Source: a virus. Taken from it: DNA of 39,540 nt. The DNA is taken from the IMG/VR virus record IMGVR_UViG_3300009081_000023, positions 1 through 39,540 of that record; one strand, written 5' to 3'. The first letter of the stretch is position 1. Each line of letters starts with the position of its first letter. The notes below the pieces were generated by a model that was not told where the DNA came from, ran no database searches, and worked only from the letters and a program-made list of their open reading frames with translations. This document shows positions 4,668 to 25,998 of this stretch, piece after piece. Both the position numbers and the translations under genes were made by a program.

Positions 4668-4875
4668 CTTCAACAGCGATTACCTCATCGACAAGATGGA
4701 GGAACAAGAGGACATGTTCCGCACCAAACTTGCGGACGTAAGACAGAAGAACGAATATCTAATGCAAGCAACTAAAGAACTTTACGAGTGTTTGCTTGAC
4801 CGCATAGGCACAAGCGAACCAACCGAGCGTGAACGCCAAGCACTTGAAGCGTTTACCAGCCGTGACAACGCCTGA
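4660..4875 (+). CDS. coiled-coil protein, unknown function
   Basis: A 71-aa protein from a GTG start that overlaps the resolvase gene by 8 bases. It is acidic and helical (DKMEEQEDMFRTKLADVR) with a central YLMQATKELYECLLDRI helix. Its coding sequence contains one copy of the dispersed 13-base motif (4734-4746). No family recognised. Confidence 0.6.
   Translation: MANFNSDYLIDKMEEQEDMFRTKLADVRQKNEYLMQATKELYECLLDRIGTSEPTERERQALEAFTSRDNA
4734..4746 (+). repeat. dispersed 13-base motif GGACGTAAGACAG, copy on + strand
   Basis: Exact copy of an asymmetric motif found three times perfectly in the window (also 7839-7851 and 9899-9911, both on the - strand) with shortened or one-mismatch versions elsewhere. 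Here it codes for D-V-R-Q. Confidence 0.6.
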
Positions 4876-5308
4876 CATTCAGCGCGTCGAAGGATACGAA
4901 CCCACTCACGACATCAAACGATTCGACTTCTCAACCGACCTAGCGTTCGGCCATGAAGGAGAAGAGATTGTACGATTGTTCCTAGAGAAGTTCGCATCTG
5001 GCGACGTCGAAGTGAAATACGACAGGTACCGCAACGGACGCATCTTCGTAGAGTTCGAACAGAACCCACGTAATACAGGATGGAAACCATCAGGTATCGC
5101 CGTCACTACCTCAGCATGGTGGGCGTATGTGTTCTCGCCAGGGGCATTGGTTATAATTGAAGTCACACGACTCAAGCGATACCTCAAACAGAACTGGCCA
5201 AACTTGCGCCAACTGGTAGCCGCTCCTGACTCCGACAACCCAGCGAAAGGAATACTTCTATACCCCGACCAAGTCAGGGACGTGATGACATTATCCACCT
5301 ACGATTGA
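4862..5308 (+). CDS. PD-(D/E)XK nuclease-like phage protein
   Basis: A 148-aa protein, start placed at GTG 4862 to limit overlap with the previous gene (an in-frame ATG at 4829 is possible). The pattern is that of a phage nuclease-fold family: FGHEGEE helix, EVKYDR (Glu50, Lys52, Asp54), VEFEQ (Glu64-Glu66), then PSGIAVTTSAWWAYVF and a final VTRLKRYL. Expected role is DNA cleavage in replication, recombination or host-DNA breakdown, not defined from sequence. The next gene starts 8 bases after its stop. Confidence 0.65.
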   Translation: MTTPDIQRVEGYEPTHDIKRFDFSTDLAFGHEGEEIVRLFLEKFASGDVEVKYDRYRNGRIFVEFEQNPRNTGWKPSGIAVTTSAWWAYVFSPGALVIIEVTRLKRYLKQNWPNLRQLVAAPDSDNPAKGILLYPDQVRDVMTLSTYD

Positions 5309-5316
5309 GAGACCAA

Positions 5317-5826
5317 ATGTTGAAACGTATTGTGTGCGTACTTTTCACGGGGCTAGTGGTAGCCGTTCCCCCCGCGGCGGCAAGTACAGACGAAAGCAAA
5401 ATGTCCGAAGGGAAGAAGGGAAGCCAAGTGTTCAGCCCAATCAGGGCCACCCCAAAGCGGGCTATCCCCGACGACCCAGAGATGCGATGCCCCCAATGGC
5501 ATCCCCTGTTCCGCAAGTACGGGCTCCCCGTCCAGGTGTTCTCGTACATTGCTTGGCGTGAGTCAAGGTGTCGGGCCCATGCAGTCAACGCCACATGGAA
5601 CAAGCACGGAGTCATGACTTACTACCTGAACCGCAACAAGTCATGGGACAGTGGCATCCTCCAGGTCAACTCCAGTTGGGTCAAGAGTGTCCGAGCGGTA
5701 TGCAAGGTAGACACTGGGGACATGCGCCAAGACCTTGAAGTGTTGCTCGACCCAGAGTGCAACGTCAGGTTTGCTCGCTGGATTATGGACAACACCAAGG
5801 GCGGACTGGGGAACTGGAGCCTTTGA
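5317..5826 (+). CDS. secreted lysozyme-like lytic transglycosylase
   Basis: A 169-aa protein starting at ATG 5317 (an upstream in-frame TTG would spoil the signal peptide). Residues 1-23 are a Sec signal peptide: MLKR, a hydrophobic core, then PPAAAS. After a 35-residue linker comes a soluble transglycosylase domain: the catalytic-type Glu82 in IAWRESRC, then DSGILQVNSSW (residues 111-121) and a terminal GNWSL. Paired Cys residues fit an exported protein. Such enzymes cleave glycan strands. Unusually it sits with recombination genes, not with the lysis cassette, so it may remodel the wall early in infection or serve entry. Confidence 0.8.
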   Translation: MLKRIVCVLFTGLVVAVPPAAASTDESKMSEGKKGSQVFSPIRATPKRAIPDDPEMRCPQWHPLFRKYGLPVQVFSYIAWRESRCRAHAVNATWNKHGVMTYYLNRNKSWDSGILQVNSSWVKSVRAVCKVDTGDMRQDLEVLLDPECNVRFARWIMDNTKGGLGNWSL

Positions 5827-5862
5827 CATGTGCGACACCCCCACGATAAAGTAAGGAGTCCT

Positions 5863-6021
5863 ATGAAGGGGCCAGTAACAAAATGGGTCTGTCGACATTG
5901 CGACCAGACACTCATGACTTACGTAAAGGTTTCTGAACCACCAACGCATCGTTGCGCGGGACAGGATAACACCACAAGAACAGGGGGCTTGTACCCCATG
6001 ACTCCGAAAGGGAGAAAATGA
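5863..6021 (+). CDS. small zinc-finger-like protein
   Basis: A 52-aa protein with an excellent ribosome site (TAAGGAG, 5852-5858) before its ATG, which decides the start. It has Cys10-x2-Cys13 (WVCRHC) and His29-x-Cys31 (THRCAG), a likely zinc site, and a basic Gly/Pro-rich tail (MTPKGRK). It overlaps the SSB start at ATGA. Function unknown. Confidence 0.65.
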   Translation: MKGPVTKWVCRHCDQTLMTYVKVSEPPTHRCAGQDNTTRTGGLYPMTPKGRK

Positions 6022-6413
6022 ATACCATCACTATCACAGGCAACGCGGGTAAGCCCGTCGAACTTACGTTCTCTAAAAGTGGCATGGCTGTCGGCAACTT
6101 CACCGTCGCTACCACCTCAGGCAAGGACGATAAGAAGGTAACAACCTGGCATAACGTCACCGTGTTCGGCACATACGCCGAGCATGCGGCCTCGACCATC
6201 GAGAAAGGTTCTAACGTCATCGTTGTCGGCAAGTTAGACATCTCTTCATATGAGAAGGACGGACAGAAGAAGTACGTCACCAAGATTCTCGCCGACGAGG
6301 TAGGTCTCTTGTGCCGTTGGAACCCTGTCCTTGCAGACAAGACGGTGCAGACTTTGAACAAGGTAACCGAAGCGTTCGGCGCACCGAAATTCCTTGACGA
6401 AGAACCGTTCTAA
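6018..6413 (+). CDS. ssb: single-stranded DNA-binding protein
   Basis: A 131-aa OB-fold protein. The core reads TITGNAGKPVELTFSKSG, then WHNVTVFGTYAEHAA and KGSNVIVVGKLDISSYEKDG, the standard SSB order of strands. It ends in the acidic hydrophobic tail DEEPF, the tip by which SSB recruits replication and recombination partners. It coats single strands made by the exonuclease. Coupled to the upstream zinc-finger gene by a 4-base overlap. Confidence 0.93.
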   Translation: MNTITITGNAGKPVELTFSKSGMAVGNFTVATTSGKDDKKVTTWHNVTVFGTYAEHAASTIEKGSNVIVVGKLDISSYEKDGQKKYVTKILADEVGLLCRWNPVLADKTVQTLNKVTEAFGAPKFLDEEPF

Positions 6414-6424
6414 CCGTGGACATA

Positions 6425-6664
6425 ATGACCATCTCGTTCGACCAGTGGATAGAGATTGGTCTACGTAGTGGCTGGGTGTCGCCACCTATATGCGAATCCC
6501 ATGACGGGCCAGCCCTAACAATCAGCGAAGAAGCAGAGTTCTTCGACGGGTCAGACCCTTGCGTGTTCTTCATGCGGGTCTACCATTCCGACGAACACCG
6601 ACAAGCGGTAGAGGAGAACTGCCCTGCCGCCGTATGGAGGAACCCATTCCGTGAAGACAACTGA
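6425..6664 (+). CDS. conserved actinophage protein, unknown function
   Basis: A 79-aa acidic protein; ATG 6425 is used, with GTG 6416 as an alternative. It begins MTISFDQWIEIGLRSGWVS and has DGSDPCVFFMRVY near the end. Small proteins with this 'SFDQW...GWVS...HDG' layout occur near replication genes of actinophages. A similar start (ITFDQWEE) appears in the leftward gene 8149-8448. It overlaps the next gene by 14 bases. Confidence 0.65.
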   Translation: MTISFDQWIEIGLRSGWVSPPICESHDGPALTISEEAEFFDGSDPCVFFMRVYHSDEHRQAVEENCPAAVWRNPFREDN

Positions 6665-6950
6665 AGGAGCAGACGTACTCTCTGATGCTTACAGTCTTAT
6701 TACAGGAGACCGACACAAGGAGTACGCCCACCCTCTCGATGATTACACCCAGACCAGGGACATCTTCGAAGCATTGACAGGCATTCACCTGACCGTAGAG
6801 CAGGCCATTCTGTTCATGGTCTCGGTCAAACTGTCACGTCTTAGGACAGCAATCGGCGAGAACAGGTGGCACAGGGACAACGTGGTCGACGCCGCTGGTT
6901 ACCTCGGTTGCCTGTCGATGGTGGTACACGCCAAGGCAGAGGGCTACTGA
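6651..6950 (+). CDS. DUF6378-like phage protein
   Basis: A 99-aa all-helical protein from a GTG start. ITGDRHKEYAHPLDDYTQTRDIFEALTG, ILFMVSVKLSRL and DNVVDAAGYLGCL match the pattern of DUF6378, a family common in actinophages that resembles MazG-like all-alpha nucleotide pyrophosphohydrolases; the acidic motifs could bind metal. A nucleotide-pool role is inferred. It overlaps both neighbours by a few bases, inside one operon. Confidence 0.7.
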   Translation: MKTTEGADVLSDAYSLITGDRHKEYAHPLDDYTQTRDIFEALTGIHLTVEQAILFMVSVKLSRLRTAIGENRWHRDNVVDAAGYLGCLSMVVHAKAEGY

Positions 6951-7189
6951 TGTCTTGGGTGTTATCGCTGGTAGGTATCACGGGGCTGGTTGCGGTCGGA
7001 CGCCACAAGTGGTGGGGTTTCGCAATCGGTCTCGGCAATGAGGTGCTGTGGGTGTACTTCGCTATTACACGCCAGGAGTACGGTCTCATCTTGGGTGCCG
7101 CCATGTATGGTGCAGTGAACCTAATGAACATGATTCGGTGGAGGCGTTATGGTATTGGCGGGACTTCGGCAACCGTGCCCGTGCGATAG
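6950..7189 (+). CDS. small multi-helix membrane protein
   Basis: A 79-aa protein whose ATG overlaps the previous stop. Three hydrophobic segments are visible (about residues 2-17, 22-40, 44-60), with Trp and aromatic residues at the borders and a basic end (MIRWRRYG). The pattern recalls a fragment of PnuC-like transporters and the small membrane proteins often found beside DUF6378 genes. Function unknown. Confidence 0.65.
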   Translation: MSWVLSLVGITGLVAVGRHKWWGFAIGLGNEVLWVYFAITRQEYGLILGAAMYGAVNLMNMIRWRRYGIGGTSATVPVR

Positions 7190-7215
7190 GTTGCCCCGAC
7201 CAACGGAGACCTATT

Positions 7216-7377
7216 GTGGCAAGTACGAAGAAGACGACGACTGACCATCGCATTGTTGTCGAACGTACCGACTACGTGAATCAGTTTGACAGGCACACAT
7301 CGGAACCTGTACGTTCATGTCCTTGTCAAGCATGCAGTGAAGAAGGGGAAGATGAAAGAACTAAACATGACCAGTAG
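7216..7377 (+). CDS. small Cys-containing protein, unknown function
   Basis: A 53-aa hydrophilic protein starting at GTG 7216 with GGAG 8 bases upstream. After a Thr/Lys-rich N-terminus it carries a cluster CPCQAC near residues 35-40 and an acidic/basic tail. The 3' end overlaps the WhiB gene in a different frame. The Cys cluster could bind metal, but no family is recognised. Confidence 0.5.
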   Translation: MASTKKTTTDHRIVVERTDYVNQFDRHTSEPVRSCPCQACSEEGEDERTKHDQ

Positions 7378-7639
7378 AGAGATGGCATGGTGGGACGACA
7401 CACCTTGCAAGGGGATGGATACCCGTATCTTTTTCCCTGAAGTGAAGCAGGGGCACTCATCGAAGGGTGTCTACGATGATGCGCTTGCAGTGTGTGAAGG
7501 TTGCATGTTCCGCAAGCAGTGCCTCGACTTCGCTATCGACGCGGAGATGAATGACATCCGCAGGTACGGGGTTTTCGGTGGGCTCACGCCTCGGGAACGG
7601 GAAGAGTATTTCGCGGGGCGTCTTCACCCGTACAAATGA
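7352..7639 (+). CDS. WhiB-family Fe-S transcription factor
   Basis: A 95-aa protein. The WhiB cluster-binding cysteines are Cys19, Cys48, Cys51 and Cys57 (DTPCKGMD, then CEGCMFRKQC), and the turn motif GVFGGLTPRERE follows at 73-84; the usual Trp of GVWGG is Phe. WhiB proteins bind a [4Fe-4S] cluster and the host sigma factor, and are confined to Actinobacteria and their phages. ATG 7352 is chosen for AGAAGG 5 bases upstream; ATG 7367 is an alternative. It is the last gene of the rightward early run, before a hairpin. It could redirect host transcription. Confidence 0.92.
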   Translation: MKELNMTSREMAWWDDTPCKGMDTRIFFPEVKQGHSSKGVYDDALAVCEGCMFRKQCLDFAIDAEMNDIRRYGVFGGLTPREREEYFAGRLHPYK

Positions 7640-7643
7640 GTAA

Positions 7644-7684
7644 CCCCGCTCGACCAACGGGAAGGGGAAACCGTGGGAGCGGGG
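7644..7684. terminator. hairpin between convergent operons
   Basis: CCCCGCTC (7644-7651) pairs perfectly with GAGCGGGG (7677-7684) across a 25-base loop. It lies 4 bases after the WhiB stop and 26 bases beyond the end of the leftward block, so it could end both transcripts. There is no T-run on either side, so strong intrinsic termination is not assured. Confidence 0.5.
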
Positions 7685-7710
7685 CTAATCAACCTGTAAC
7701 TATAGCGTAT

Positions 7711-8013
7711 TCAATCTAGTTTGCGTGCCTCGTATCGTGCTTTCATGTGGCGTTGGCTCATTTGCTGGGCATCGTAAAGAGCGACCGACTCGCACGCGTA
7801 ATGGCACGCACGTTCGGGGTCAGCAACCCACACACTCCCTGTCTTACGTCCCGAGCCACGCCAATACTTCACCGCGTGCGGGCCTGCCATCTGGGCTATC
7901 ACCCACCGTTCGGTCATCTCCATCCGCGGCTGTGGTTCGCGACGCATCTTGCCCACCAAAGTGCAGGCGATGTTGATGGTCGGGCGTTCAATCAGCCAGT
8001 GCTTGACGCTCAT
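7711..8013 (-). CDS. unknown protein, last gene of leftward block
   Basis: A 100-aa basic protein, MSVKHWLIERPTINIACTL at the start, with a central beta-like part (ERWVIAQMAGPHAVKYWRG) and a helical end (DAQQMSQRHMKARYEARKL). It overlaps the upstream gene by 26 bases. One exact copy of the dispersed 13-base motif lies inside it, coding here for R-K-T-G in a different frame from the other copies. No family recognised. Confidence 0.65.
   Translation of the reverse strand: MSVKHWLIERPTINIACTLVGKMRREPQPRMEMTERWVIAQMAGPHAVKYWRGSGRKTGSVWVADPERACHYACESVALYDAQQMSQRHMKARYEARKLD
7839..7851 (-). repeat. dispersed 13-base motif, copy on - strand
   Basis: Reads CTGTCTTACGTCC on the + strand, the exact reverse complement of the copy at 4734-4746. 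It is translated in another frame than the other two exact copies, which argues that the DNA and not the protein is conserved. Confidence 0.6.
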
Positions 8014-8146
8014 AACCCTCCATGTTTTCGATGCAGATAGTCCAGCCCCAACGGTTCACCAGCATGGCCACGACGTTGCGGGCTAGGCGTTCACTGGTTA
8101 CGTGGCTATGGATGAAGTCCTCGAACTCTGACTGTGCGTCCCTCAC
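7988..8146 (-). CDS. small helical protein, unknown function
   Basis: A 52-aa protein from a GTG start two bases after the upstream stop. It is mostly one helix (DAQSEFEDFIHSHVTSERLA) followed by a Trp-rich turn (NRWGWTICIENMEG). It overlaps the next leftward gene by 26 bases. No family recognised; packing supports coding. Confidence 0.5.
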   Translation of the reverse strand: MRDAQSEFEDFIHSHVTSERLARNVVAMLVNRWGWTICIENMEGYERQALAD

Positions 8147-8148
8147 GG

Positions 8149-8448
8149 TCAAGCCACCCGAACGTCGATGTCTGTGCCACTAGGCCAAGCGTTCTCGGTG
8201 ACGAAGTATCCGACACGGTTCACCTGATGGTATCCGTTGATGATTACCTGCCCCTCGTCACAATCCACCAGCGTCCACACTCGACGTGGTTCCCGTGTCG
8301 CCACCGATATGACTGCTTCGTGTTCCTTGCCGAACGTCTCAAACATCAGGCCACCAGTGCCATCGTTGAACGATGCCTCGCTGTCCAGCGTGTTGGTTGT
8401 TGGTTTGTATTGTTCTTCCCATTGGTCGAACGTGATTCGTGTAGTCAC
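8149..8448 (-). CDS. conserved actinophage protein, unknown function
   Basis: A 99-aa protein from GTG 8448, which overlaps the upstream stop (GTGA). It begins MTTRITFDQWEEQYKP and has a beta-rich C-terminal half with LVDCDEGQVIINGYHQVNRVGYFVTE, a pattern seen in small actinophage proteins of unknown role. Its ribosome leader GGAAGGGGAAGCA is a variant of the repeated leader of this block. Confidence 0.65.
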   Translation of the reverse strand: MTTRITFDQWEEQYKPTTNTLDSEASFNDGTGGLMFETFGKEHEAVISVATREPRRVWTLVDCDEGQVIINGYHQVNRVGYFVTENAWPSGTDIDVRVA

Positions 8449-8627
8449 TGCTTCCCCTTCCTTGTCTCTTCAATATGGTTATCGCGTGCCGTGGTTGTCT
8501 CACCTGTCGTAAGACCGATGAGATACTCGACACCGTCCTTGTCTGCTACCCCGCCGATGATGACACCCTGCCGACCGTAGTCCTTGTGCCATGTTGCGAT
8601 GATGGTTACCTTGATGCCGCGCTTCAC
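8445..8627 (-). CDS. small KOW/SH3-like beta-barrel protein
   Basis: A 60-aa protein starting at GTG 8627, chosen because GTG overlaps the upstream stop (GTGA) and GCGAGG lies 6 bases before it. The sequence KRGIKVTIIATW, GRQGVIIGGV and YLIGLTTGETTTAR has the strand-turn-strand pattern of KOW or SH3-like barrels. Such small barrels often bind RNA, DNA or a protein partner. The specific role is unknown. Confidence 0.55.
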   Translation of the reverse strand: MKRGIKVTIIATWHKDYGRQGVIIGGVADKDGVEYLIGLTTGETTTARDNHIEETRKGKQ

Positions 8628-8794
8628 TTGTCGCCTCGCTCCTTCATGAGTGCCCACTTGTAACGGTCACGGATAGCCCGCTCCCTGTCCATCTTTTTCT
8701 GCCAGCGTTCCGAGGCGAGCATCCAGCCCATGCTAAAGGTCAGCGCTCCCATGATAAACACTTCGCCGAGTGTAAAGATTTCGTCGGGATACAT
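8624..8794 (-). CDS. small single-helix membrane protein
   Basis: A 56-aa protein with AAGGAG before its ATG. Residues 9-27 form one hydrophobic segment with many Met and Phe (GEVFIMGALTFSMGWMLA), followed by a strongly charged cytoplasmic-type tail (RWQKKMDRERAIRDRYKW). It shares bases with both neighbours (TAATG upstream, GTGA downstream). Function unknown; membrane placement is clear. Confidence 0.6.
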   Translation of the reverse strand: MYPDEIFTLGEVFIMGALTFSMGWMLASERWQKKMDRERAIRDRYKWALMKERGDK

Positions 8795-8976: not shown

Positions 8977-9107
8977 TGCTGTTTCCCTCCTGTTATTTGT
9001 ATAACCTCGTACGGTTCATCTATCACTAGCGTTTCGCCTAGACACCAGTCTCTCGGGTCGGTATCGGATTCGATTTCTATAGTTATTTGGTACTTGCTTT
9101 TTCTCAT
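8973..9107 (-). CDS. small acidic protein, unknown function
   Basis: A 44-aa protein, MRKSKYQITIEIESDTDPRD at the start, then a beta-like stretch (GETLVIDEPYEVIQITGG). Its stop overlaps the next start at ATGA, and the leader AAAGGGAAACGGCA precedes its ATG. Coding is supported by the overlap and ribosome site; function unknown. Confidence 0.5.
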   Translation of the reverse strand: MRKSKYQITIEIESDTDPRDWCLGETLVIDEPYEVIQITGGKQQ

Positions 9108-9340: not shown

Positions 9341-9369
9341 GGACTCTCGCCCGATTTCTTTTGCCTGTC

Positions 9370-9705
9370 TTACGACTGGCATCGCACGTACTTCTCACGT
9401 ATTGCGATGCTGTCATGATGCCGCGCCCTGCACTGTCTGCGTGTCCGCCCCTGCCAGTGGCGTTGCGTCATCGTGTCATAGTTCAAGCGGTAGCGGTGTC
9501 GTGCCTTCGCCCACTCCATAGCCTCCTCGTAGTAGCCCTCCGCTTTTGCAATTCGTAGCGCCGCTCCTGTCTTATACCTGAGGTATGGGTTTCGTATGTC
9601 TTCGGCGATGTTTTCTACGATGAATCGGTACTGTATTTGTTCGGCCTCGGTATGTACTTTCGGGTCGAGGAATTGCCCGCCCAGAATTGTTTGCCATGTC
9701 TTCAC
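9370..9705 (-). CDS. basic unknown protein of leftward block
   Basis: A 111-aa protein starting at GTG 9705 (GTGA overlap with the upstream stop; GGAGACCAAGCG before it). The first 70 residues are acidic/helical (TEAEQIQYRFIVENIAEDIR, then YYEEAMEWAKARHRYRL); the last 40 are Arg- and His-rich (RHWQGRTRRQCRARHHD), suggesting nucleic-acid contact. No family recognised. An ATAAGACAG variant of the dispersed motif lies inside at 9567-9575, and a GTAAGACAG copy overlaps the stop. Confidence 0.6.
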   Translation of the reverse strand: MKTWQTILGGQFLDPKVHTEAEQIQYRFIVENIAEDIRNPYLRYKTGAALRIAKAEGYYEEAMEWAKARHRYRLNYDTMTQRHWQGRTRRQCRARHHDSIAIREKYVRCQS

Positions 9706-9887
9706 CGCTTGGTCTCCTTCATCTCGTTGATGTCTTGAATGTCTGCGCGTCCGTGGTAGATACTGCCGCCCGCCTTTGTTCGGTAGGTGATAGCCCACAC
9801 TCCGCCGCCCATGTCTTCGGGCGTGCTCATTAGTTGCACTGGTTGCCCGTCAATGTTCACGATGTCCCCGTGTCCTAGCGTTATCAC
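9702..9887 (-). CDS. small beta-rich protein, unknown function
   Basis: A 61-aa protein from GTG 9887, with AGGAGG upstream and GTGA overlaps at both ends. It starts MITLGHGDIVNIDGQPVQLM and continues with short strands (VWAITYRTKAGGSIYHGRAD), resembling small SH3-like folds, then a charged tail (INEMKETKR). No family recognised. Confidence 0.55.
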   Translation of the reverse strand: MITLGHGDIVNIDGQPVQLMSTPEDMGGGVWAITYRTKAGGSIYHGRADIQDINEMKETKR

Positions 9888-10195
9888 TTGCCTGCCTCCT
9901 GTCTTACGTCCTCGGCGTAGCCTGCCCACACTGCAACCGCTCCATCGGTGATGGTGCTCGTAATCCATACGCCCGCCCAGTCGGCGCGCTCTACGTACTG
10001 GCGGACGGCCTCGCGGTAGTTCTCGCCAGTGTTCAGGCTGTAATCCCATGACACGACGATTCGGTTCGGGTCTTTGCCCCAAGTGTTCGACTCGTAGCGT
10101 GACACGGTGATTCGTCCGCCGTTGGCGCTGTACTTGCATCGGATGGTAGCCCGATTCGATTCGCGTACTACCTTTTCCCGTTCTTGCGTTTCCAT
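9884..10195 (-). CDS. unknown protein of leftward block
   Basis: A 103-aa protein with the leader AAAAGGGGCAAGCA directly before its ATG, which fixes the start. The central part (TIRCKYSANGGRITVSRYESNTW, cut here into strands) is beta-rich, followed by a helix with SLNTGENYREAVRQYVER and a Trp/Ala-rich C-terminus. The last codons contain an exact copy of the 13-base motif (9899-9911). A predicted promoter lies just upstream. Confidence 0.65.
   Translation of the reverse strand: METQEREKVVRESNRATIRCKYSANGGRITVSRYESNTWGKDPNRIVVSWDYSLNTGENYREAVRQYVERADWAGVWITSTITDGAVAVWAGYAEDVRQEAGK
9899..9911 (-). repeat. dispersed 13-base motif, copy on - strand
   Basis: Third exact copy (CTGTCTTACGTCC on the + strand), near the 3' end of the 9884-10195 gene and 12 bases upstream of the GTG of the next gene, beside its AGGAGG ribosome site. 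Confidence 0.6.
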
Positions 10196-10328: not shown

Positions 10329-11117
10329 CTAGCGTCCTGTCAGGATGAACGGCTCCCCGCACCCGCCGCACGTTATGCCCTTGTCCAGTGCCTTGATGCT
10401 CGTCCTAATGATTGACCCGCACCCGCATACCGCGCGCACCCCGTTCTTGTTGCGGCCTGTCGATGTCTCGCCGCCGCCCGTGAAGAAACCTCCGCCGCCC
10501 GTTGGTGCGTCCGTTCCTGTCTTATGTCCTGACGCTACGCGGATAGCCTCGTCGATGCGGGCTATCTGTCGCGCCCACTTGGTAGCACACTCACGGCCTA
10601 CCGTCGTCTTCGTCCATCCTGCCCAATGATTAGGGGCGTACTCTTCGATAGTCAGGCCGAAGAAATATTCGGCGGTGTCCTTGAATTTCTTGTTGTGGCG
10701 CCCGTTCTGGTCTACGTCTTGCACGCCCCGCACAATGTTCACCGCATGGGCTATCTCATGGGCAACCGTGCCGAAGACGTCACGCCCGCCGCGCGCTAGG
10801 TTTTCCGCCGATACCATGATTTCATAGAAACCTTGGTACTTGGTGACCGTTCCGAGGCCGATTGATAGCGCCCAAGGTGTATAGGCGTAGTCTTCGTCGG
10901 GCGCATCGTATGGGGTAGCCCATGTCGGGCGGGTAGTTATGTGTCCCCAAGCGCGGGAGTCGCGTTGCACCACGAAGACCACGGGCGGCAGTGTGACGGT
11001 ACCGTGAGACAGTGCCGAGACGTGCTCGCCTAGTTCGCGGTAGGTGTCATGGAGTGCGGCAACGATGGGCGCGATAGTCGCATCATCGAGGCCGTGCCCC
11101 TTGGTGAGTGTTTGCAT
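10329..11117 (-). CDS. SprT-like zinc metalloprotease
   Basis: A 262-aa protein starting at ATG 11117, fixed by the leader GAAAGGGGCAAGAA. Residues 118-124 contain the zinc-protease motif VAHEIAH (His120, Glu121, His124), and His141 in NGRHNKKFKD is the likely third ligand, the order seen in SprT/Spartan proteins. A Gly-rich linker (205-220) leads to a C-terminal zinc ribbon: Cys231-x-Cys233 and Cys250-x2-Cys253. Cellular relatives digest proteins cross-linked to DNA. In a phage it might clear DNA-bound proteins or attack a host factor; this is inference. Confidence 0.8.
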   Translation of the reverse strand: MQTLTKGHGLDDATIAPIVAALHDTYRELGEHVSALSHGTVTLPPVVFVVQRDSRAWGHITTRPTWATPYDAPDEDYAYTPWALSIGLGTVTKYQGFYEIMVSAENLARGGRDVFGTVAHEIAHAVNIVRGVQDVDQNGRHNKKFKDTAEYFFGLTIEEYAPNHWAGWTKTTVGRECATKWARQIARIDEAIRVASGHKTGTDAPTGGGGFFTGGGETSTGRNKNGVRAVCGCGSIIRTSIKALDKGITCGGCGEPFILTGR

Positions 11118-16865: not shown

Positions 16866-17240
16866 ATGTCCGACGCAGGATACGCACAACGCACAGACCT
16901 ACTCGCACCGAAAGCCGCACCAGGCCAAACCTACGGTGAGGCTGGACAGCAGATTGCCGCACAGAAAGCGGTACCGATGGGCAACCCCACGCCTTCCGTA
17001 CAGCAGACACCGCGCCCACGCCCAGGCCAGTTCGGTCCACTAGACCGCCCGACCGAACGCCCCGACGAACCGCTCACCGCAGGAGCCCCGTTCGGTTCAG
17101 GGCCAATGCCGCAAGCCAACGCATACATGGGACGCCGCAACGCCGACCCAGTGCTCGACGAACTTCGTGCTCTGTACGCCTCCTATCCGTCAGACGAACT
17201 TGCTGACATGCTGGACTCTTATCTTCGCGAAGGATACTGA
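16866..17240 (+). CDS. Pro-rich protein after portal
   Basis: A 124-aa protein whose ATG follows the portal stop with no gap. The first 90 residues are Pro/Gly/Ala/Gln-rich and likely disordered (GQTYGEAGQQIAAQKAVPMG); the last 30 form a helix-turn-helix-like acidic segment (PVLDELRALYASYPSDELAD). Short Pro-rich proteins just after the portal are common in actinophages and of unknown role, perhaps a portal or ejection-protein adaptor. It overlaps the next start. Confidence 0.7.
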   Translation: MSDAGYAQRTDLLAPKAAPGQTYGEAGQQIAAQKAVPMGNPTPSVQQTPRPRPGQFGPLDRPTERPDEPLTAGAPFGSGPMPQANAYMGRRNADPVLDELRALYASYPSDELADMLDSYLREGY

Positions 17241-20200
17241 TGGCCGTATTTGGCGCATTTGACCCTACAGACGAAGACAATCTTGATAAAGAAGCACAAG
17301 ACGCAATCTCGACTGTAAGCAATCTCGGCAAAAACACCACCCCACAACAGGCGCAAATGCTCGCGGACCTGTACAAAAAGATGCCTTGGGTTGCACCGAA
17401 GGTGCTGTTGGACGCATCAAAGAACCCGAACTTGTCACCACAGGCACAGCAAGTTATTGCTAACGCGGGCGCCACCCAGTACATCAAACAGAACGACCCT
17501 AATAATCCAGAGAAAAAGAAGGGTTGGTGGGACCGCAACGTATACGACAAGGTGAAGTCTGTGTCCCGTTGGACGTTCGCTGGCCTTCAGTTCGCACCCG
17601 ACGTAGCACAGAACGTAGCGTCACAAATTTTCTCTGGCAACGACCCCGACGGTATTGACGGATGGTTCAAGTCCACCCAGTTGGGCACCATGGTCGGCGG
17701 CGATGACGCTGGAGAAGGATTCTTTTTCGGTGGCAAAGCCGCAGACGAACAGGCCCGCCGTGCCCGCGAGTTCCGTGGCACCATCAACGGCCATGCCTGG
17801 ACCATCGGACGTGGCGCCGCAGACCTTGTCTTCACCCCAGGAAGCAAGCCATACTCCCTGCTGTCAGGGTTCCTTGATGCCTCCGTACAAATTTTTGCCG
17901 ACCCAACCCTGTACGCGGGGCAGGCACTAAAAGCCGCCAAGACAGGTGAGGCCGCCAAAGGCGTGTGGGGCACCCGCAAAATTTCTCAAGTCATCGCCGA
18001 CGCCGCAGTAGAAAAAGGCATCGTTCAAACCGACAAGATTCCTCAACTCACCAAGGAAGCCGCTGAGGCCGCCGCACGAATCAGCCGAGGCGAAATCGGA
18101 ATCAACTCCGCCGAAGCCATCTCATTTGTCGACTCCGACTACTTCCGTTGGTTTGACAAGAACAACAAAGCAGTCCGCCTCTCCGAACGATTCGCAGGGT
18201 ACGCCTCTGAAGCAACAGCAAAAGCAGTTGGCCTTTCCGACGAAGCAACAGAAATCGAACGTGGCAAAGCCGCACTCAAAATCATGCAGGACTTCCGTGG
18301 ACGCATCGACGGAGAAACAGCCATGCGCCTTGCCGCCGCAGACAGCCCACTCAAAGTCAAGGCTGTACTTGCAGAAGCCGCAAGCCAACTTGGGCGAGAA
18401 ACAAACAGCGTTATCATCCCACGCCAAATCGGAAACATCCGAGGTGCAGGCGCAACCTATGCGGCCCGCGAACTTGCCCGCGAACGTGTACCGCTATGGC
18501 GCAACATCCGACACAGTTCTTGGTGGGAACAAATCCCAACCGAAGGCGCAATCGTCAACGGCTCCAGCCTCGACCGCGCCAAGTCCATTCGCACCATGGA
18601 CCAGTGGATGCGAGGCATCGGATACCACACCGCCAAAACCGCAGACTACGAAAACTTCATGGGTAAAACTGTCGCCTACCTATCAGACACCGACGGCGCG
18701 AAGCGCAACATTCGGTTCGAAAAACTGTACGACGAGTTCGTAGAAAAGATTACAGAGTTTGCTGGCGGAGACAAGGCCATCGCCACCGAAACCACACGCC
18801 GTCTCCGCGACGAACTTGCAAAAGTGCGAACCTACGCAATCGACAACGCTGGCCTGCCCGACGACGGTGGGCTTGTCCAGATGCTCCGCCAGTACATTCC
18901 CGACAAGGTTCTAGAAAAGTTCAGTCCAGATGAACTAGACAACCTGAAAACAAACGGACCAGGCGCACTCATCGAACTTGTCGACAAGACCCTTGTCCTT
19001 CCCGACTTCCGCAAGTATCGCGCCATCGTCGGCAACCCCGTCACCCGTAACGCCCTTCGCACCCGCGCTGGAGACGAGCGTGTTTTGGTGGCTGTTACCA
19101 ACCAACTTCAGCAAGAAGTCTGGAAACCACTTGTGCTTGCCACTGGTGGATACGTGGTCCGCAACATGATTGACAGCCACATCCGTATCGCCGCCCGCGG
19201 ATACCAAAGTTTCTTCACCCATCCCTTCCAATTTATCCAGACAGTCATCGGTTCACGCTACGTCGGACCACTAAACAGGCCAACCGACAAGTTCGGTCGT
19301 GTGCTCGCCCGCACCTTCGAAGAAATGGACAGCGACGAAATCTCAGAAAGCCTCGCAGGAATCTGGGACGACTACTCCAGGGCTACAAACAAGACTGTTT
19401 ACAACCACCTCAAAGACCCGTTGTTGGCCAACGAACGCCAGTTCCGTGGAGAAAACTTCGCCATTGTCACCCGCCAAGGTGACCGTGCCGCCCACACCAC
19501 TGGGTATATCGACAGCATTGGACAGGTCGCTACCGACCCTATCCTCCAGCAAATGTCCCGATACTGGCGTCTTCCGCGCGATGAGCGAAACGCCAAACTT
19601 ATCGAATGGATGGAAAACACCGCCGAAGGCAAACGGGCCAAGGCTGACGTTCTGGACTTCTTCTCCTCTGGGGTGCGTCTTCCCCACCACCGCACAGGCA
19701 AAAACTTTTACGTCACTTTTGACCAGGCCAGTGACAACGAAAAAATCATGGCATGGCTTGAAGGACCAACCACCGCACGAATCCAAACCCTCATCAACGG
19801 TGACGAGGACATGCGCTTCATCGTCCAGCACGACCGCGTCCCCCTCATCGAAACAGTTGAACTTCCCAACGGGACCAAGCAGACCCAAGTTGCCCCTCTC
19901 GTAAACAACCAGCGCTTAGACACCCTGACGCCAATAGAACCAGGCAAACCGCTCGACGTCGGAAGTGTTATCAACATGGGCAACGGCAACGAGGGCGTCA
20001 TCACTGACATTCGCACCATCCAAATCAAAGACCCATTCAACCCAGGTGTAGTCGTCGACGAGCAGATTGCTGACGTTCAGCCAGTCTTCAAGGGTGCCGC
20101 GTTTACCCGCCGCAAGAACGACCCGACCCTGTTCGGGACAGAAGAACTCCGTCGCATGGTCGACATCAAAGGCGATGAAGGAATCTTGCCTCAGTTTGTA

Positions 20201-22048
20201 AAGCGCGCAGAACGAATCGAAAAAGGAAAAACCGTTGGCCTCGATAAACTCAGTGGCGCCCTCGACACAGGGGTGCGCTGGTTTTTCGGTGGCATTGTAG
20301 GTACCGCACAAAAGAACCTGGAACGCTCCCCGTTCTTTCGTCAAGCCTTCTACAAAGAAGTCGCCGACAGCGCAATGATGCTGTCCCGAGACGAACAACT
20401 CAAGTTGCAAAAGCAGATAACCGACTATGTGGCCGACCTCAACCAGGACCTTTCCCGCAAGGGTTTTGCCAACCTGACTGAAGAACGCTACGTCGGCGGC
20501 AAAGACATCTACAACAAAATCTTCGGCACAGCCGCCACGGGTGACGCAACCATCGACGACCTCCAGAACTTTGCGTCCGCCGTAGCCCTCTACGACGTCG
20601 AACGAACCCTGTACAACGCGGCAGAAAAGTCCAACTTCGAAGACATGTTCCGCATCGTCGCCCCATTCGCAACCGCTTTCCGCGAGACTTTAGGAAAGTA
20701 CAGCCAGTTCCTCATCGAAGACCCGAGCCGCATCCGCAAGACCCAACTCGCTGTCAACGCCATGACCTACGACAACGATGACCCAGACGACTTCATCTCT
20801 GGGTTCTTCGACAAAGACCCTGTCGACGGCAAAAGCGTGTTCAATGTTCCTATCGGCGGCTGGGTTGGTGGCATCCTCGCGTTCCCGACCAAGGGCCCAT
20901 TCCAGGTGTCGAACCTTCCTGGGTTCGGGCCAGTCGTACAAATCGCCGCGTCCAGCCTCCTTCCAGACACACCGAAACTCGATGACTTCCGTAAGTTTGT
21001 TTTGCCATACGGTGAACAGAACCTCAGCGCCATTCTCCCCGCCTGGGCGCGCCGCGGTTTCGAAGCCGTCAAAGCCGACACCACCAACGCCGCTTCAATG
21101 TTCGGCCAAACCTACGTGGACACCATCAAGTATCTGATGACCACAGGCAAATACGACACCAGTAACCCAGACGAGATGGCGCAACTCTACGCTGACGCTA
21201 AGGGCAAAGCCCGCAACCTGACCATCCTCAGGTCGTTCTTTCAGTTCATGGGCCCAACCTCACCGCGCCTCGACTTCCGTGTCGACCTCGAAAACGGTGA
21301 CGTCCTGGCGTCCAGCATCGCTGAAGCCTGGTACGACATGCGAAGCGAAAACCCAGACACAGCAGTCGAACGGTTCATCGAAACCTTCGGCGAAGAAGCA
21401 TTCTCCTACATGGGTTCCAAGACCCGTGCGGTAGCAGGTGGTGTCGAAAACACCGAAGCATTCCGCGAATGGCAAATCGAAAACGGTGACCTGTTCGAAC
21501 AGTATTCCAACGTGGCTGGCTACCTTGCCCCAGGCGGAGACATATTCTCGTTCCAGGCTTACAACCGCGCGTTGCAGGCTGGCCTCACCAGGAGACTTAG
21601 CCCAGTAGAAGTGAAAGAAGCCGCAGACTATGTCATCGGCAATTTCTACTACCGTCGCAAACGCGACGCTATGGGAGACACGTTGAGCGATGAACAGCGT
21701 GCATGGTTGGGCAGGTACCGAGAAGTAATCAACAAGAAGTTCCCTGGGTTCCCTGTGTCGGCCCAGTTCAATCCGAACCAGTTGGATGATGACATTTCTG
21801 ACTTGCGTCGCCTCACCTCGGATGCCCGTGTGGCCGACAACCCGACCGCCGCCAGTATCGCCAAGTACATCAACTACCGTGACCAAGCGCTTGCCGAGGC
21901 CGAGAAGGTCGGTCTTACGACCTTGGATTCCAAGCAGGCGGCCCCGTTGCGGGACTGGTTGAGTAGTATTGCTCGCGTACTCATCGACGAAAACCCTGAG
22001 TTTGCAAGAATCTATACTGACAAGTTCTCCCCAGAGGTAGACAAATGA
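17240..22048 (+). CDS. giant internal virion/ejection protein candidate
   Basis: At 1602 aa this is the largest protein of the phage. It is mostly helical with many charged residues and no long transmembrane segment. Landmarks are WWDRNVYDKVKSVSRWTF near residue 95, AARELARERVPLWRNIRH near 415, LATGGYVVRNMIDSHIRIA near 635, and a C-terminal region with YVIGNFYYRRKRD. It lies between portal and scaffold, where podoviruses place large core or ejection proteins that leave the capsid with the DNA. No lysozyme or polymerase motif was seen. The C-terminal regions of the next genes share its helical style. Confidence 0.6.
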   Translation: MAVFGAFDPTDEDNLDKEAQDAISTVSNLGKNTTPQQAQMLADLYKKMPWVAPKVLLDASKNPNLSPQAQQVIANAGATQYIKQNDPNNPEKKKGWWDRNVYDKVKSVSRWTFAGLQFAPDVAQNVASQIFSGNDPDGIDGWFKSTQLGTMVGGDDAGEGFFFGGKAADEQARRAREFRGTINGHAWTIGRGAADLVFTPGSKPYSLLSGFLDASVQIFADPTLYAGQALKAAKTGEAAKGVWGTRKISQVIADAAVEKGIVQTDKIPQLTKEAAEAAARISRGEIGINSAEAISFVDSDYFRWFDKNNKAVRLSERFAGYASEATAKAVGLSDEATEIERGKAALKIMQDFRGRIDGETAMRLAAADSPLKVKAVLAEAASQLGRETNSVIIPRQIGNIRGAGATYAARELARERVPLWRNIRHSSWWEQIPTEGAIVNGSSLDRAKSIRTMDQWMRGIGYHTAKTADYENFMGKTVAYLSDTDGAKRNIRFEKLYDEFVEKITEFAGGDKAIATETTRRLRDELAKVRTYAIDNAGLPDDGGLVQMLRQYIPDKVLEKFSPDELDNLKTNGPGALIELVDKTLVLPDFRKYRAIVGNPVTRNALRTRAGDERVLVAVTNQLQQEVWKPLVLATGGYVVRNMIDSHIRIAARGYQSFFTHPFQFIQTVIGSRYVGPLNRPTDKFGRVLARTFEEMDSDEISESLAGIWDDYSRATNKTVYNHLKDPLLANERQFRGENFAIVTRQGDRAAHTTGYIDSIGQVATDPILQQMSRYWRLPRDERNAKLIEWMENTAEGKRAKADVLDFFSSGVRLPHHRTGKNFYVTFDQASDNEKIMAWLEGPTTARIQTLINGDEDMRFIVQHDRVPLIETVELPNGTKQTQVAPLVNNQRLDTLTPIEPGKPLDVGSVINMGNGNEGVITDIRTIQIKDPFNPGVVVDEQIADVQPVFKGAAFTRRKNDPTLFGTEELRRMVDIKGDEGILPQFVKRAERIEKGKTVGLDKLSGALDTGVRWFFGGIVGTAQKNLERSPFFRQAFYKEVADSAMMLSRDEQLKLQKQITDYVADLNQDLSRKGFANLTEERYVGGKDIYNKIFGTAATGDATIDDLQNFASAVALYDVERTLYNAAEKSNFEDMFRIVAPFATAFRETLGKYSQFLIEDPSRIRKTQLAVNAMTYDNDDPDDFISGFFDKDPVDGKSVFNVPIGGWVGGILAFPTKGPFQVSNLPGFGPVVQIAASSLLPDTPKLDDFRKFVLPYGEQNLSAILPAWARRGFEAVKADTTNAASMFGQTYVDTIKYLMTTGKYDTSNPDEMAQLYADAKGKARNLTILRSFFQFMGPTSPRLDFRVDLENGDVLASSIAEAWYDMRSENPDTAVERFIETFGEEAFSYMGSKTRAVAGGVENTEAFREWQIENGDLFEQYSNVAGYLAPGGDIFSFQAYNRALQAGLTRRLSPVEVKEAADYVIGNFYYRRKRDAMGDTLSDEQRAWLGRYREVINKKFPGFPVSAQFNPNQLDDDISDLRRLTSDARVADNPTAASIAKYINYRDQALAEAEKVGLTTLDSKQAAPLRDWLSSIARVLIDENPEFARIYTDKFSPEVDK

Positions 22049-22884: not shown

Positions 22885-24989
22885 TGGCTGACAATTTCAT
22901 TCTTACTAGCGACAAGTACGACTTTGACCTGACGCTCCCAGAAAACCAGATTCCAGCGCCACCCATCAAGGCAACCAAACAGCAACTCGAAGAGCAACTG
23001 ACCCAAGCCGAAAGCCTATTCGACCAACTCCAAAAAGGTTATGTTGCCAACTCTGATAGGTACGCCTCACGTTCAGAGTTCGACAAAGCAAAGCGTGAAA
23101 CTCTGCTCATGATTCAGGAAACCATCCCAGCGGACCTGAATCGTATCGCTAAATGGGAAGAAAAATATTCGGTAAAGAGTAAGGATTCTGCGGTTGGTAA
23201 GCCTTCGGTTGCAATACCAGCAAGCCGCGTATACGAGTTACAGCAGGAATACAAAGATTACCAAAAGATTGCAAACAATCCTCCCGCTTCCGTAAAAAGA
23301 TATTTGGACGCAATCAAGGAGGTACGCAACCTTCAAGCCAAGATGGACAAAGCAGGCACCAAGGAAAGCAAGATGTCGGACGCCGACAAGTATCTTGCGT
23401 TGGCCGCCGCATGGCAAAAGGTACGCCCCGCCATTACCCCAGAAGTCGAGGAATTTGCACGAAAGTCGGTCCCAACTTCAATCAACAGATACGGCGAAGT
23501 GCTGACTATTTCCAGCACGACAAAACGAGATGACCGTTTCACTTCTGCTGAAGTTGACAGTTTCTTTGAATCAAATTTGAATAACGCAATGAAGGCCGCG
23601 GAACGCCAGTTCTCTGATGTTGTTGTTGTCAGCGAGGACCGATGGGGCAGGCCGCTGGAAAGCACCAGAATCAGGAATGAGAAGCAGTCGGCCGAGTTGG
23701 CATCTTTTGAGAACAGGTTGAACCAGGTGGTCGGTGGGACCGCTAACGCCGCAGACGTAATCCAGGTTGGTACTGGTGTGTCCGCTACGCCAGTTACCCC
23801 AGTCGGGGGCGCCCCTGGCCAAGAGAACCGTGGCGCTATGACTGGCCGTTTGGGTCAGCAGGCCCTAACCCCACAAGCCGCCGCACAAGACCGACAGTTC
23901 GCTGGAGCCCGTCCAGTCGAGACACCGCGCGTCGCTACCGAAACGGTCGGTGATTTCCGTGGCGCTATGACTGGACAACTTGAGGCAGGGCTTGGCGCTC
24001 GCGGTCCCGTCACCCCTTCAAGAAGGACTGGCGATGGCACAAGCGTGGGCTCTGCTGGCCCTAGCGGCGGAGGTGGCGGGGGAGTAGGTGGCGCTGGAGG
24101 AGCCGCAGGCGCGGCCACCATTGACGGCAAAAAGGCTGGCCTCAACTGGGAAGACAACATCCGCAAATACTTCCCCAAACAAGCGTGGCTACTCGACGAA
24201 GTTGACCGAGGCTCCAACGCAGACCTGTTCGACCTCCTCAAAGAATACTCTGTACCGCGCCCACTCACCCAAGAAGAAATTGCTATCTTCGCGGCACGTC
24301 TCGAAAACACGGGCTACTACAAGGGTCTTGCAAGTAGCGGCAAGATTCGCCAAATCAAATCAGTTGTCGGCGACATCGGCTTCGACACAACCGACTTCAC
24401 ACAGTTCGTCAACCGTGCCATCAACCTCGGCTGGGAAGGCGACCGACTCGCCCAAGAAACATACCGAGAAGTATTCAGCACCAACCCAGACGGTTCATAC
24501 ATCAACCCTGTTGCCGCCCAACGCGCCCTCAAATCCAACGACTACCTGGGACTCGCTAAGGTGTCGCGCGAATACTTCAACCCTGTCGGCACTGACGCGG
24601 CCAACACCCGCATCGTGCGTGTACTCACTGGTGAACAAAACTCAGAAGACTTCGTAAGACAGGAACGCGAACTAGCCAAGCAACGCTACGCCCACCTTGC
24701 CCCTCTCATCGACCAGGGTCTTTCTCTCGAAGACATCGCATCCAACTACAAACGCACCGCCGCAGAAATCTTGGAGCGCGACATCAACAGTATCGACATG
24801 AGCCAAGCCGACTACGAGGTAGCCCTCAAGTTCGGCGAGGAAGGCAAACAGCGTGTCATGACCAACGGCGAATGGGAACGACTGCTCCGCACTGACGCCA
24901 AGTATGGTTGGGACAAAACAGAAAACGCTAAGGCTGAAGCCAGGTCTTTGGCCAACACGGTGGTTCAAGCGTTCGGGAGGATTATCTAA
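22884..24989 (+). CDS. probable internal/ejection protein, 701 aa
   Basis: It starts at a GTG overlapping the previous stop (TAGTG). The first 250 residues are coiled-coil-like (QQLEEQLTQAESLFDQLQKG). A linker at about 275-410 is Gly/Ala/Gln/Thr-rich and contains two short repeats RGAMTGRLGQ and RGAMTGQLEA, then a poly-Gly stretch. The C-terminal 290 residues form a second helical domain beginning GLNWEDNIRKYFPKQAWLLD. Such two-part helical proteins near the portal are typical ejection proteins. No enzyme motif seen. Confidence 0.6.
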   Translation: MADNFILTSDKYDFDLTLPENQIPAPPIKATKQQLEEQLTQAESLFDQLQKGYVANSDRYASRSEFDKAKRETLLMIQETIPADLNRIAKWEEKYSVKSKDSAVGKPSVAIPASRVYELQQEYKDYQKIANNPPASVKRYLDAIKEVRNLQAKMDKAGTKESKMSDADKYLALAAAWQKVRPAITPEVEEFARKSVPTSINRYGEVLTISSTTKRDDRFTSAEVDSFFESNLNNAMKAAERQFSDVVVVSEDRWGRPLESTRIRNEKQSAELASFENRLNQVVGGTANAADVIQVGTGVSATPVTPVGGAPGQENRGAMTGRLGQQALTPQAAAQDRQFAGARPVETPRVATETVGDFRGAMTGQLEAGLGARGPVTPSRRTGDGTSVGSAGPSGGGGGGVGGAGGAAGAATIDGKKAGLNWEDNIRKYFPKQAWLLDEVDRGSNADLFDLLKEYSVPRPLTQEEIAIFAARLENTGYYKGLASSGKIRQIKSVVGDIGFDTTDFTQFVNRAINLGWEGDRLAQETYREVFSTNPDGSYINPVAAQRALKSNDYLGLAKVSREYFNPVGTDAANTRIVRVLTGEQNSEDFVRQERELAKQRYAHLAPLIDQGLSLEDIASNYKRTAAEILERDINSIDMSQADYEVALKFGEEGKQRVMTNGEWERLLRTDAKYGWDKTENAKAEARSLANTVVQAFGRII

Positions 24990-25966
24990 TGAGTATGCCA
25001 AACGTGATGTCGCCAGATGATTTCATGGCGCAAAATTTTCCGACTACCGAAACAACTTTTATTGACGAAAGAATGGAAAGCGACGAGGAAAGACTGACTC
25101 GCTCAGACATCGACAAAGCAATCTCAGACTTCTACAACCGTCAAACCGCACAAGACACAGAAACCGCAACCTCAATTATTGCGAACGTCTTTTCCTATTT
25201 CGGCATGTCCGACCCCGAACTGGTCGACGCCCTACGCACCGCCCTTGCCGAACGTCGCATCACAGGCTCGTCCACGGTTGATGATGTCGGTATCCAGTTG
25301 CGGGAAAACCCAGCATTCCAGCGCAGGTTCTCAGCCAACGAGGCTCGCCGCCGCGCAGGCAAACCGCAATACACAATCAGCGAGTACCTTCAACTCGAAA
25401 ACTCCTACCGCTCCGTCCTCCTTGCGGGCGGCATGGACCCAGGGTTCTATGACAGTCCAGAAGATTTCCAGCGTTTTATCGAACGGGACATTTCCCCAGA
25501 AGAACTTAGAACAAGGGTGCAACAGGGTTACCAAGCGGTAAGGGAAGCCGACCCCGCTGTAGTCGAAGAACTCAAAACCCTTTACGGGCTCAATGACAAC
25601 CAGTTGGCCTCTTTCTTTATCGACCCAGAACGGACCCGCGAAAGCGTTGTCCGTGCCGCACGCGCCGCCGAGATTGCCACCCAGGCCCGCCAACAGGCCA
25701 ACATGCCTCTCGCCGCAGGAGAAGCCGAACTGTTAGCACGCCAGGGAATCACCCAGGAAGAAGCCCGCGCGGGATTCGGACAAATCCAACTCGGCCAAGA
25801 GTTACTCCAAACCCAGTTACAAGGCGAAGAAGCACTCACCCGCGAAGACATCCTGGGCGCAACCTTCGGAACCAACGCCGCCGCCACACAACGTGTCGCA
25901 ACCCGTGCTCGTAAGCGTCGAGCAACCTTCGAACAAGGCGGACAGGTCGCCCTCGGCGAAGCCTAA
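24989..25966 (+). CDS. probable internal/ejection protein, 325 aa
   Basis: Its ATG overlaps the previous stop. It is helical and shows a pattern known in actinophage structural proteins: FQRRFSANEARRRAGK, YTISEYLQLENSYRSVLL, GGMDPGFYDSPEDFQRFI, DISPEELRTRVQQGYQAVRE, LASFFIDPERTRESVVRAAR. The C-terminus is basic (TRARKRRATFEQGG). The three genes 22045-25966 probably form a set of core proteins. A predicted promoter begins just past its stop. Confidence 0.65.
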   Translation: MSMPNVMSPDDFMAQNFPTTETTFIDERMESDEERLTRSDIDKAISDFYNRQTAQDTETATSIIANVFSYFGMSDPELVDALRTALAERRITGSSTVDDVGIQLRENPAFQRRFSANEARRRAGKPQYTISEYLQLENSYRSVLLAGGMDPGFYDSPEDFQRFIERDISPEELRTRVQQGYQAVREADPAVVEELKTLYGLNDNQLASFFIDPERTRESVVRAARAAEIATQARQQANMPLAAGEAELLARQGITQEEARAGFGQIQLGQELLQTQLQGEEALTREDILGATFGTNAAATQRVATRARKRRATFEQGGQVALGEA

Positions 25967-25969
25967 TAG

Positions 25970-25998
25970 TTGATTCTGTCGTAAGACAGCACTACAGT
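25970..25998 (+). promoter_or_regulatory. predicted promoter for scaffold and capsid with internal inverted repeat
   Basis: TTGATT (25970-25975), a 17-base spacer and TACAGT (25993-25998), in the 159-base gap before the scaffold gene. The spacer holds the inverted repeat CTGTC-GTAA-GACAG (25976-25989), which includes the 9-base core of the dispersed motif, so a protein bound there would block the promoter. Downstream is a possible hairpin with arms CCGTGC and GCACGG (about 26028-26056). Confidence 0.5.

Follow-up and report, generated by a model that had tools for sequence, protein, structure and literature searches.

The virus record IMGVR_UViG_3300009081_000023 from IMG/VR (positions 1-39,540, one strand, 5′ to 3′; the whole 39,540-nt stretch is referred to below as the window) carries a short dispersed motif, which an initial annotation had described as an asymmetric 13-mer. 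We show that this motif consists of half-degenerate copies of a palindrome, approximately TnMTGTC-TTAA-GACAKnA with the core GTC(T/G)TAAGAC, and that the supposed 13-mer is the same palindrome with one weaker arm. A link new to this analysis is that site density follows the gene of a SprT-like metalloprotease, located in the window at 10329-11117 on the minus strand and encoding a 262-AA product with an HExxH motif and a C-terminal four-Cys ribbon. The sites are abundant almost only in SprT-bearing phages, which suggests, from sequence comparison, an unrecognised phage gene-control system. We consider it fairly probable that the site is the operator of a dimeric DNA-binding regulator which controls early and capsid genes and is coupled to the SprT-like protein.

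Copies of the motif were located exactly where they had been placed before: the 13-mer without mismatch at 4734 (+), 7839 (-) and 9899 (-) and with one mismatch at 10517 (-), the 9-base GTAAGACAG also at 9365 (-), 14223 (-), 24654 (+) and 25981 (+), and ATAAGACAG at 9567 (-). The accompanying claim that such a 9-mer is rare by chance was borne out, with seven copies of GTAAGACAG vs. 0.21 in dinucleotide shuffles. We also performed the exhaustive count against codon-preserving shuffles proposed in the initial annotation; for each of the six counts tested none of 1000 shuffles, in which bases outside the gene set stayed unshuffled, reached the observed number. Specifically, the 13-mer was found 3 times vs. 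a mean of 0.01, GTAAGACAG 7 times vs. 1.33 (maximum 4), TAAGACAGG 8 times vs. 0.61 (maximum 3) and CGTAAGAC 10 times vs. 1.92 (maximum 6). The most over-represented 9-mer of the window was TAAGACAGG with a z of 16.3; the top 9-mer of 40 codon shuffles did not exceed 12.4.

The symmetry of the element is seen when all copies of CGTAAGAC are read, as GTC-GTAA-GAC is intact in five places, and the GTC and GAC arms are both intact at the window sites 4606, 8501, 9362, 21907 and 25973. In a divergent relative, G003, three copies form the perfect palindrome GTCTTAAGAC. With at most one mismatch allowed, GTCTTAAGAC ranked first among the 1024 palindromic 10-mers in G001, G002, G003, G010 and L006 and second in the window; it was absent in 13 of the 25 sequences examined for palindromic 10-mers. 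At the same tolerance it was first of 1024 when the early regions of the family were searched in 32 contigs, the non-redundant subset of 81, with 23 occurrences vs. 2.2 and 23 vs. 1.7 expected, and removal of the window and G003 clades left it in first place (18 vs. 2.0; 16 vs. 1.5). In the exonuclease-annealing block next to these regions it did not rank first (3 vs. 1.2 expected). The early genes are highly mosaic, and because much of this region consists of genes that are non-homologous between the compared phages, shared coding descent fails to explain the enrichment. In SprT-bearing phages the site profile exceeds the core, with T at positions -9 and -6 and A or C at -7 (the mirrored half is by construction, as both strands were pooled), and the element thus has the size expected of a dimer operator.

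To list the window sites we built a scoring matrix from 119 sites in 17 loci, all of them outside the window clade, and took at least 12 bits as strong. Twelve strong sites were obtained, vs. a mean of 1.83 and a maximum of 5 in 300 codon shuffles and none in the reversed sequence. Ten of the twelve lie at 4.6-10.5 kb, in the early region (coordinates are given without strand). The leftmost, with core GTCGTAAGAC (4606-4625, 17.8 bits), is within the nuclease gene 4326-4667, and GTCTTAAGAC is found at the same position in G003. It is followed by the 4734 copy with core GACGTAAGAC (4730-4749, 15.7 bits), by two sites with weaker cores, GACTTACTAC (5611-5630, 15.0 bits) and GTCTTATTAC (6689-6708, 14.5 bits), and by GTCTTAGGAC (6833-6852, 19.2 bits) in the DUF6378 gene 6651-6950. 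Site GTCTTACGTC occurs twice, as the 7839 copy (7836-7855, 14.3 bits) in gene 7711-8013 and as the 9899 copy (9896-9915, 13.7 bits) near the end of gene 9884-10195. Between them, GTCGTAAGAC recurs at 8501-8520 (12.4 bits) in gene 8445-8627, and GTCTTACGAC (9362-9381, 17.8 bits) overlaps the stop codon of gene 9370-9705, as had been noted for the 9365 copy. The 10517 copy belongs to GTCTTATGTC (10514-10533, 19.2 bits) inside the SprT-like gene itself; its counterpart is GTCATAAGAC in L078 and also in L006, where the stretch is 78% identical. Outside the early region, GTCTTACGAC is present at 21907-21926 (14.4 bits) in the late gene 17240-22048, and the best site of all, CTGTCGTAAGACAG (25973-25992, 19.8 bits), occupies the spacer (17 bp) of a putative promoter that precedes the capsid operon; a copy in a promoter spacer had also been recognised initially.

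The sites at 4606, 5611, 6689, 6833, 8501 and 21907 had been missed before. The full set contradicts the statement that most copies are oriented with transcription, the strong intragenic sites pointing 6 with and 5 against it (n = 11). The copies at 9567, 14223 and 24654 are probably half-sites or coding coincidences, because with the independent matrix they score low or not at all (14223 below 8 bits; 24646, corresponding to the 24654 copy, 8.4 bits; 9567 unlisted).

Other palindromes were also observed. A search of the relatives for two-arm palindromes with other spacers gave nothing general. Over-represented gapped palindromes of other sequence are present in G003, G010 and G015 (AACA-NN-TGTT, 11 vs. 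2 and 6 vs. 0.75; TGCT-NN-AGCA, 9 vs. 1). A second dispersed palindrome, TCACCGGTGA, has eight window sites vs. 1.0 by a Markov model and is found also in G016; it may reflect codon usage, because 12 of 1000 codon shuffles reach its count.

That the conservation is at the level of DNA, as the initial annotation had held, is supported both by the codon shuffles and by retention of sites in relatives. When sites of 13 reference phages were compared with aligned relatives at 55-90% flank identity, the 10-mer was kept exactly in 52% of 623 site-partner pairs, which are non-independent, vs. 7.4% for neighbouring 10-mers used as controls in the same codon phase. Of 38 aligned relatives, 63% carry the DUF6378 site at 6833 unchanged, vs. 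3% for control 10-mers; the Arg-Leu-Arg-Thr residues encoded there (window 6838-6847) are written CGT CTT AGG ACA in 30 of 49 homologues, and in relatives without the site, e.g., G004, these residues are encoded by different codons. Loss of sites in close relatives with unchanged proteins, which had been named beforehand as evidence against a conserved site, was found in G004 and L073, but there the sites were lost together with the SprT gene. Such a joint loss fits the loss of a system better than no system.

The putative capsid-operon promoter comprises a -35 box TTGATT (25970-25975, +) and a -10 box TACAGT (25993-25998, +), so that the arrangement reads TTGATT-CTGTCGTAAGACAGCAC-TACAGT with 17-bp spacing, upstream of genes that include the capsid gene. 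At the homologous place G022 has TTGACA-ACGGTCTTAAGACCGTA-TATAGT, in which the site is a perfect palindrome, and the promoter-spacer placement is therefore found in two lineages. Elements with one or two mismatches are present at a similar distance upstream of the capsid gene in L122/G025, G023, G024, G013, G017, L203 and L199. The promoter-like sequence of G004, a phage without SprT and without sites, is retained as TTGACA-N17-TACTGT with no site in the spacer.

The window SprT-like protein has PF10263 (SprT-like) as its best Pfam match (E 0.00089), although the score of 19.5 bits is under the curated cut-off of 25.6, and it matches phrog_6361 at 5.8e-28. The HExxH is invariant in 18 aligned SprT-like sequences. 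When gene content was compared in the WhiB-to-terminase region of 33 loci, the SprT-like family was the one most unevenly shared, being found in 7 of 11 site-rich and 0 of 14 site-poor loci; L149 was later found to carry the gene as well. One end of this interval is anchored by the WhiB-like protein gene (window 7352-7639, +), the other by terminase (TerL). For the complete interval (24 rows; 10 with SprT less 2 duplicates, 14 others less 1 near-copy), all eight SprT-bearing contigs have at least 0.37 sites/kb, and 12 of 13 contigs without SprT have 0.17 sites/kb or fewer, the exception being G010.

The same relationship was seen for contigs found by protein alone. SprT homologues with 50-54% identity led to five new contigs, L198, L199, L200, L202 and L203, which hold 18, 12, 6, 7 and 6 sites vs. 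0.2-0.6 expected, the palindrome ranking 1 of 1024 in all five. In this test the palindrome ranked first in 16 of 23 loci (six of the 23 being contigs met before), the weakest being L196 (1 site, rank 48), L185 (2 sites, rank 23) and L184 (2 sites, rank 7). A query with the terminase of the distant clade fetched 80 loci, of which 36 contigs had usable upstream DNA and 33 were non-redundant. Eight contigs with SprT hold 62 sites vs. 1.7 expected, and the 25 without it hold 20 vs. 4.8 expected, 21 of them having at most one. Four of the eight were new (6, 6, 5 and 3 sites) and four were already known from the SprT protein search.

The association does not extend to other phage SprT-like proteins: the Dulem virus 37 locus has 2 sites vs. 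0.56 expected and MT836340 has none. We also compared eight cluster K mycobacteriophages, some of which carry SprT and WhiB, as the window does. A SprT match is present in Pixie, Anaya, ZoeJ, Fionnbharth and Unicorn (the Unicorn match holds two TAG) and in none of Kratio, Aminay and Boilgate; aligned with the Pixie SprT by hhalign, the window protein matches over 17 columns only, around HExxH. Their Start-Associated Sequences (SAS), counted on both strands, number 19 in Pixie, 17 in Anaya, 14 in ZoeJ, 9 in Fionnbharth, 17 in Unicorn, 24 in Kratio, 25 in Aminay and 0 in Boilgate. Thus, among these eight phages SprT and SAS are not associated, with Kratio and Aminay having many SAS without SprT and Boilgate lacking both. 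Together with the two unrelated phage records, this indicates that the association is restricted to the SprT subfamily of the window.

For the operator reading that we favour, we infer repression, a dimeric binder, a role in timing and an involvement of SprT along the following lines. The ~20-bp operator-type site TnMTGTC-TTAA-GACAKnA would be read by a dimeric DNA-binding protein at about a dozen positions, ten across the early region in both transcription directions, one in the late gene and one in the capsid-promoter spacer. An occupied spacer site would block initiation at the putative capsid-operon promoter, and occupied early sites might roadblock or silence early transcription, which would produce early-late timing. 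The window proteins that were scanned included no product of a lysogeny gene. The SprT-like protein, or a complex with it, might bind the sites or remove the protein bound there; a third possible role is that of a module companion. A further, tentative proposal, which we hold to be possible rather than probable, is that a metalloprotease of the SprT/Spartan class acts as a sequence-addressed switch of gene expression, the protease or its DNA-bound target being directed by genome-wide palindromes at gene junctions, within genes and in the capsid promoter.

Several observations weigh against the proposed operator and its coupling to SprT. Two phages are site-rich without the gene, G010 with a complete interval and G022, a partial record in which none was found; L252, L247, L282 and L239 keep 3-7 sites with no SprT upstream of terminase. 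In L252, L247 and L239 the sites are confined to the part away from terminase, as would be seen after an exchange of the block nearer to it, and L282 resembles the G003 lineage minus SprT. On the TerL tree the pattern needs several gains or losses, and there are just three independent pairs with good support (two agree, one shows no difference), so that formal phylogenetic significance is not reached. At the late promoter, G023 and G024, which lack a SprT match, also have an operator-like sequence. Promoter-embedded sites are not enriched (2 unique among the 198 sites of the loci examined vs. ~4 by chance at a relaxed threshold), and because they are no commoner than chance, the promoter argument relies on homologous position and not on number. 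For the window alone the palindrome ranks first against codon shuffles but is non-significant once the look-elsewhere effect is considered, as 766 of 1000 such shuffles give some equally extreme palindrome. Conservation also fails at some sites, L170:5130 being kept in 0 of 82 partners and window 8506 in 0 of 2. The structure model of the SprT-like protein is poor (pLDDT 66.5) and gave no fold match, and homology searches revealed neither a site-binding protein nor a partner gene specific to site-rich phages. Finally, 35 of the 72 distant-clade sites immediately precede an ATG, for which ~3% is the chance expectation.

This last placement, together with the many distant-clade sites that overlap an upstream stop codon, would suit a translation-initiation element like the SAS, whose RNA copy before the AUG would be bound or paired to control many early genes. 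Many of these sites fall exactly at gene junctions, where the TAA of the site ends one gene and the start codon ATG of the following gene adjoins; they may serve translation control, or the junction may merely be the cheapest position for a TTAA-containing operator. We consider the translational explanation rather improbable, since the window and G003 sites are intragenic in both orientations and the DUF6378 site is conserved though mid-gene; mid-gene sites on both strands and sites in promoter spacers favour action at the DNA level. The position of the L198-L203 sites at gene junctions and the high mosaicism of the early genes could likewise point to a gene-cassette boundary or a recombination element through which small early genes are spread, but this is very improbable given conserved mid-gene sites such as that in DUF6378, the promoter-spacer sites and the SprT association. 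Chance or codon usage, for which we find nothing beyond the three weak copies at 9567, 14223 and 24654, has a negligible probability, being contradicted by the codon shuffles, the independent matrix, the family palindrome rank, the conservation and both the SprT-found and the terminase-found contigs.

Two further explanations, each unlikely in our view, concern the protein at the site. A phage-wide regulator, ribbon-helix-helix (RHH) or WhiB, might bind the sites with SprT as a mere passenger of the same module, as the existence of G010 and G022 would allow. The CopG-type RHH protein (4047-4211, +), suggested as a binder in the initial annotation, is the one protein of the early region in which a classical DNA-binding fold was recognised; it is universal in the family (PF01402 in 8 of 8 members). 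It is, however, present in site-rich and site-poor relatives alike, with little change in the strand that we take to contact DNA: this strand is identical in the window (rich) and G004 (poor) and common to L122 (rich) and G006 (poor). Being non-discriminating, the RHH protein fails to explain the site pattern, for which the SprT-like gene does better, and it is a weak candidate binder. The WhiB neighbour family (7711-8013) was also considered as a binder and rejected, because a hidden Markov model finds it in all 21 site-poor contigs tested as well. The sites might instead trap a host DNA-binding protein, which the SprT-like protease, if DNA-activated like Spartan, would destroy there, the sites being kept only alongside the protease. 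This would agree with the HExxH and ribbon of the SprT-like protein, with the absence of any other phage-coded regulator that tracks the sites, and with the DNA dependence of the SPRTN protease described in PMC5127644; yet the promoter-spacer placement looks regulatory and not decoy-like.

In appearance the sites seem closest to stoperators and to SAS and extended SAS (ESAS), and in possible logic to IrrE/DdrO. Like the stoperators of cluster A mycobacteriophages (L5, Trixie), they are short repressor-type sites in and between genes, dispersed mainly over the early, non-structural region (10 of 12 window sites at 4.6-10.5 kb), with clade-specific variants. Stoperators, as outlined in PMC6550527 and PMC9283540, are asymmetric, mostly in one orientation and bound by the immunity repressor of temperate phages. 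The window sites, in contrast, are palindromic, lie in both orientations and are SprT-linked, and neither an integrase nor an immunity repressor was found among the window proteins scanned, the scans covering not every open reading frame. Of the initial reading, the dispersed stoperator-like regulatory site with conserved DNA is therefore supported by the codon shuffles, the conservation in relatives, the early-region distribution and the promoter spacer; the asymmetric, oriented stoperator of the L5 kind is rejected on the palindromic consensus, the half-site profile and the 6-with/5-against orientation.

Cluster K SAS, according to PMC3203893 and PMC12699233, lie in the early half beside start codons and sometimes hold the upstream stop codon; ESAS are inverted repeats described there as of unknown function. 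The first description of SAS and ESAS dates from 2011. The SAS consensus GGGATAGGAGCCC is non-palindromic with a Shine-Dalgarno core and differs from the consensus of the window family, and placement at start codons, as seen in the distant clade, is not the rule in the window. In the IrrE/DdrO system of Deinococcus, a metalloprotease is paired with a repressor whose conserved DNA motif recurs across many promoters (PMC5552922, PMC7907104). An HExxH metalloprotease is shared with the window family; there, however, homology searches found no repressor like the known one cleaved by the IrrE/DdrO protease, and the protease is weakly SprT-similar. ImmA/ImmR is a system comparable to IrrE/DdrO. HExxH, the C-terminal Cys ribbon and the best Pfam match are points of likeness to SprT/Spartan, unlike the sub-threshold score.

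No earlier description of the site, or of SprT with operators, was found in the literature, most subscription journals lying outside the coverage, and a search for the site 10-mer gave no title on phage operators. SprT-like proteases, whose best-known role is the repair of DNA-protein crosslinks in eukaryotes, are common in phages, 970 records matching one. If the proposed operator holds, it would suggest a regulatory role for these proteases and would equip a large uncultured phage family, for which no close annotated relative was found, with a defined regulatory circuit whose site and gene could both be tested. A tractable second example of dispersed start-linked repeats would also help, even though SprT does not track SAS.

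The window record is probably a complete genome, as a 123-base perfect direct repeat is present at its termini (1-123 and 39418-39540). Its genes include those of a terminase, a portal, a P22-type capsid (PF13252) and a podophage head protein, and it also encodes a RecE-like exonuclease, an annealing protein, SSB and the WhiB and RHH proteins. No near DNA match to the first 24 kb was found among 50,697 phage records, the genome contigs searched as a host and prophage test held no relative of the terminase or the SprT-like protein, and a defence-family search gave no match. The closest annotated capsids, ~45% identical, are those of Streptomyces phages, and relatives of the window are abundant among uncultured viral contigs. 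The late protein encoded at 17240-22048 (1602 AA) has no Pfam or PHROG match. A near-identical ribosome-binding stretch, AAAGGGGCAAG, precedes several minus-strand genes (window 9285, 10195, 11117, 11445 and 11632).

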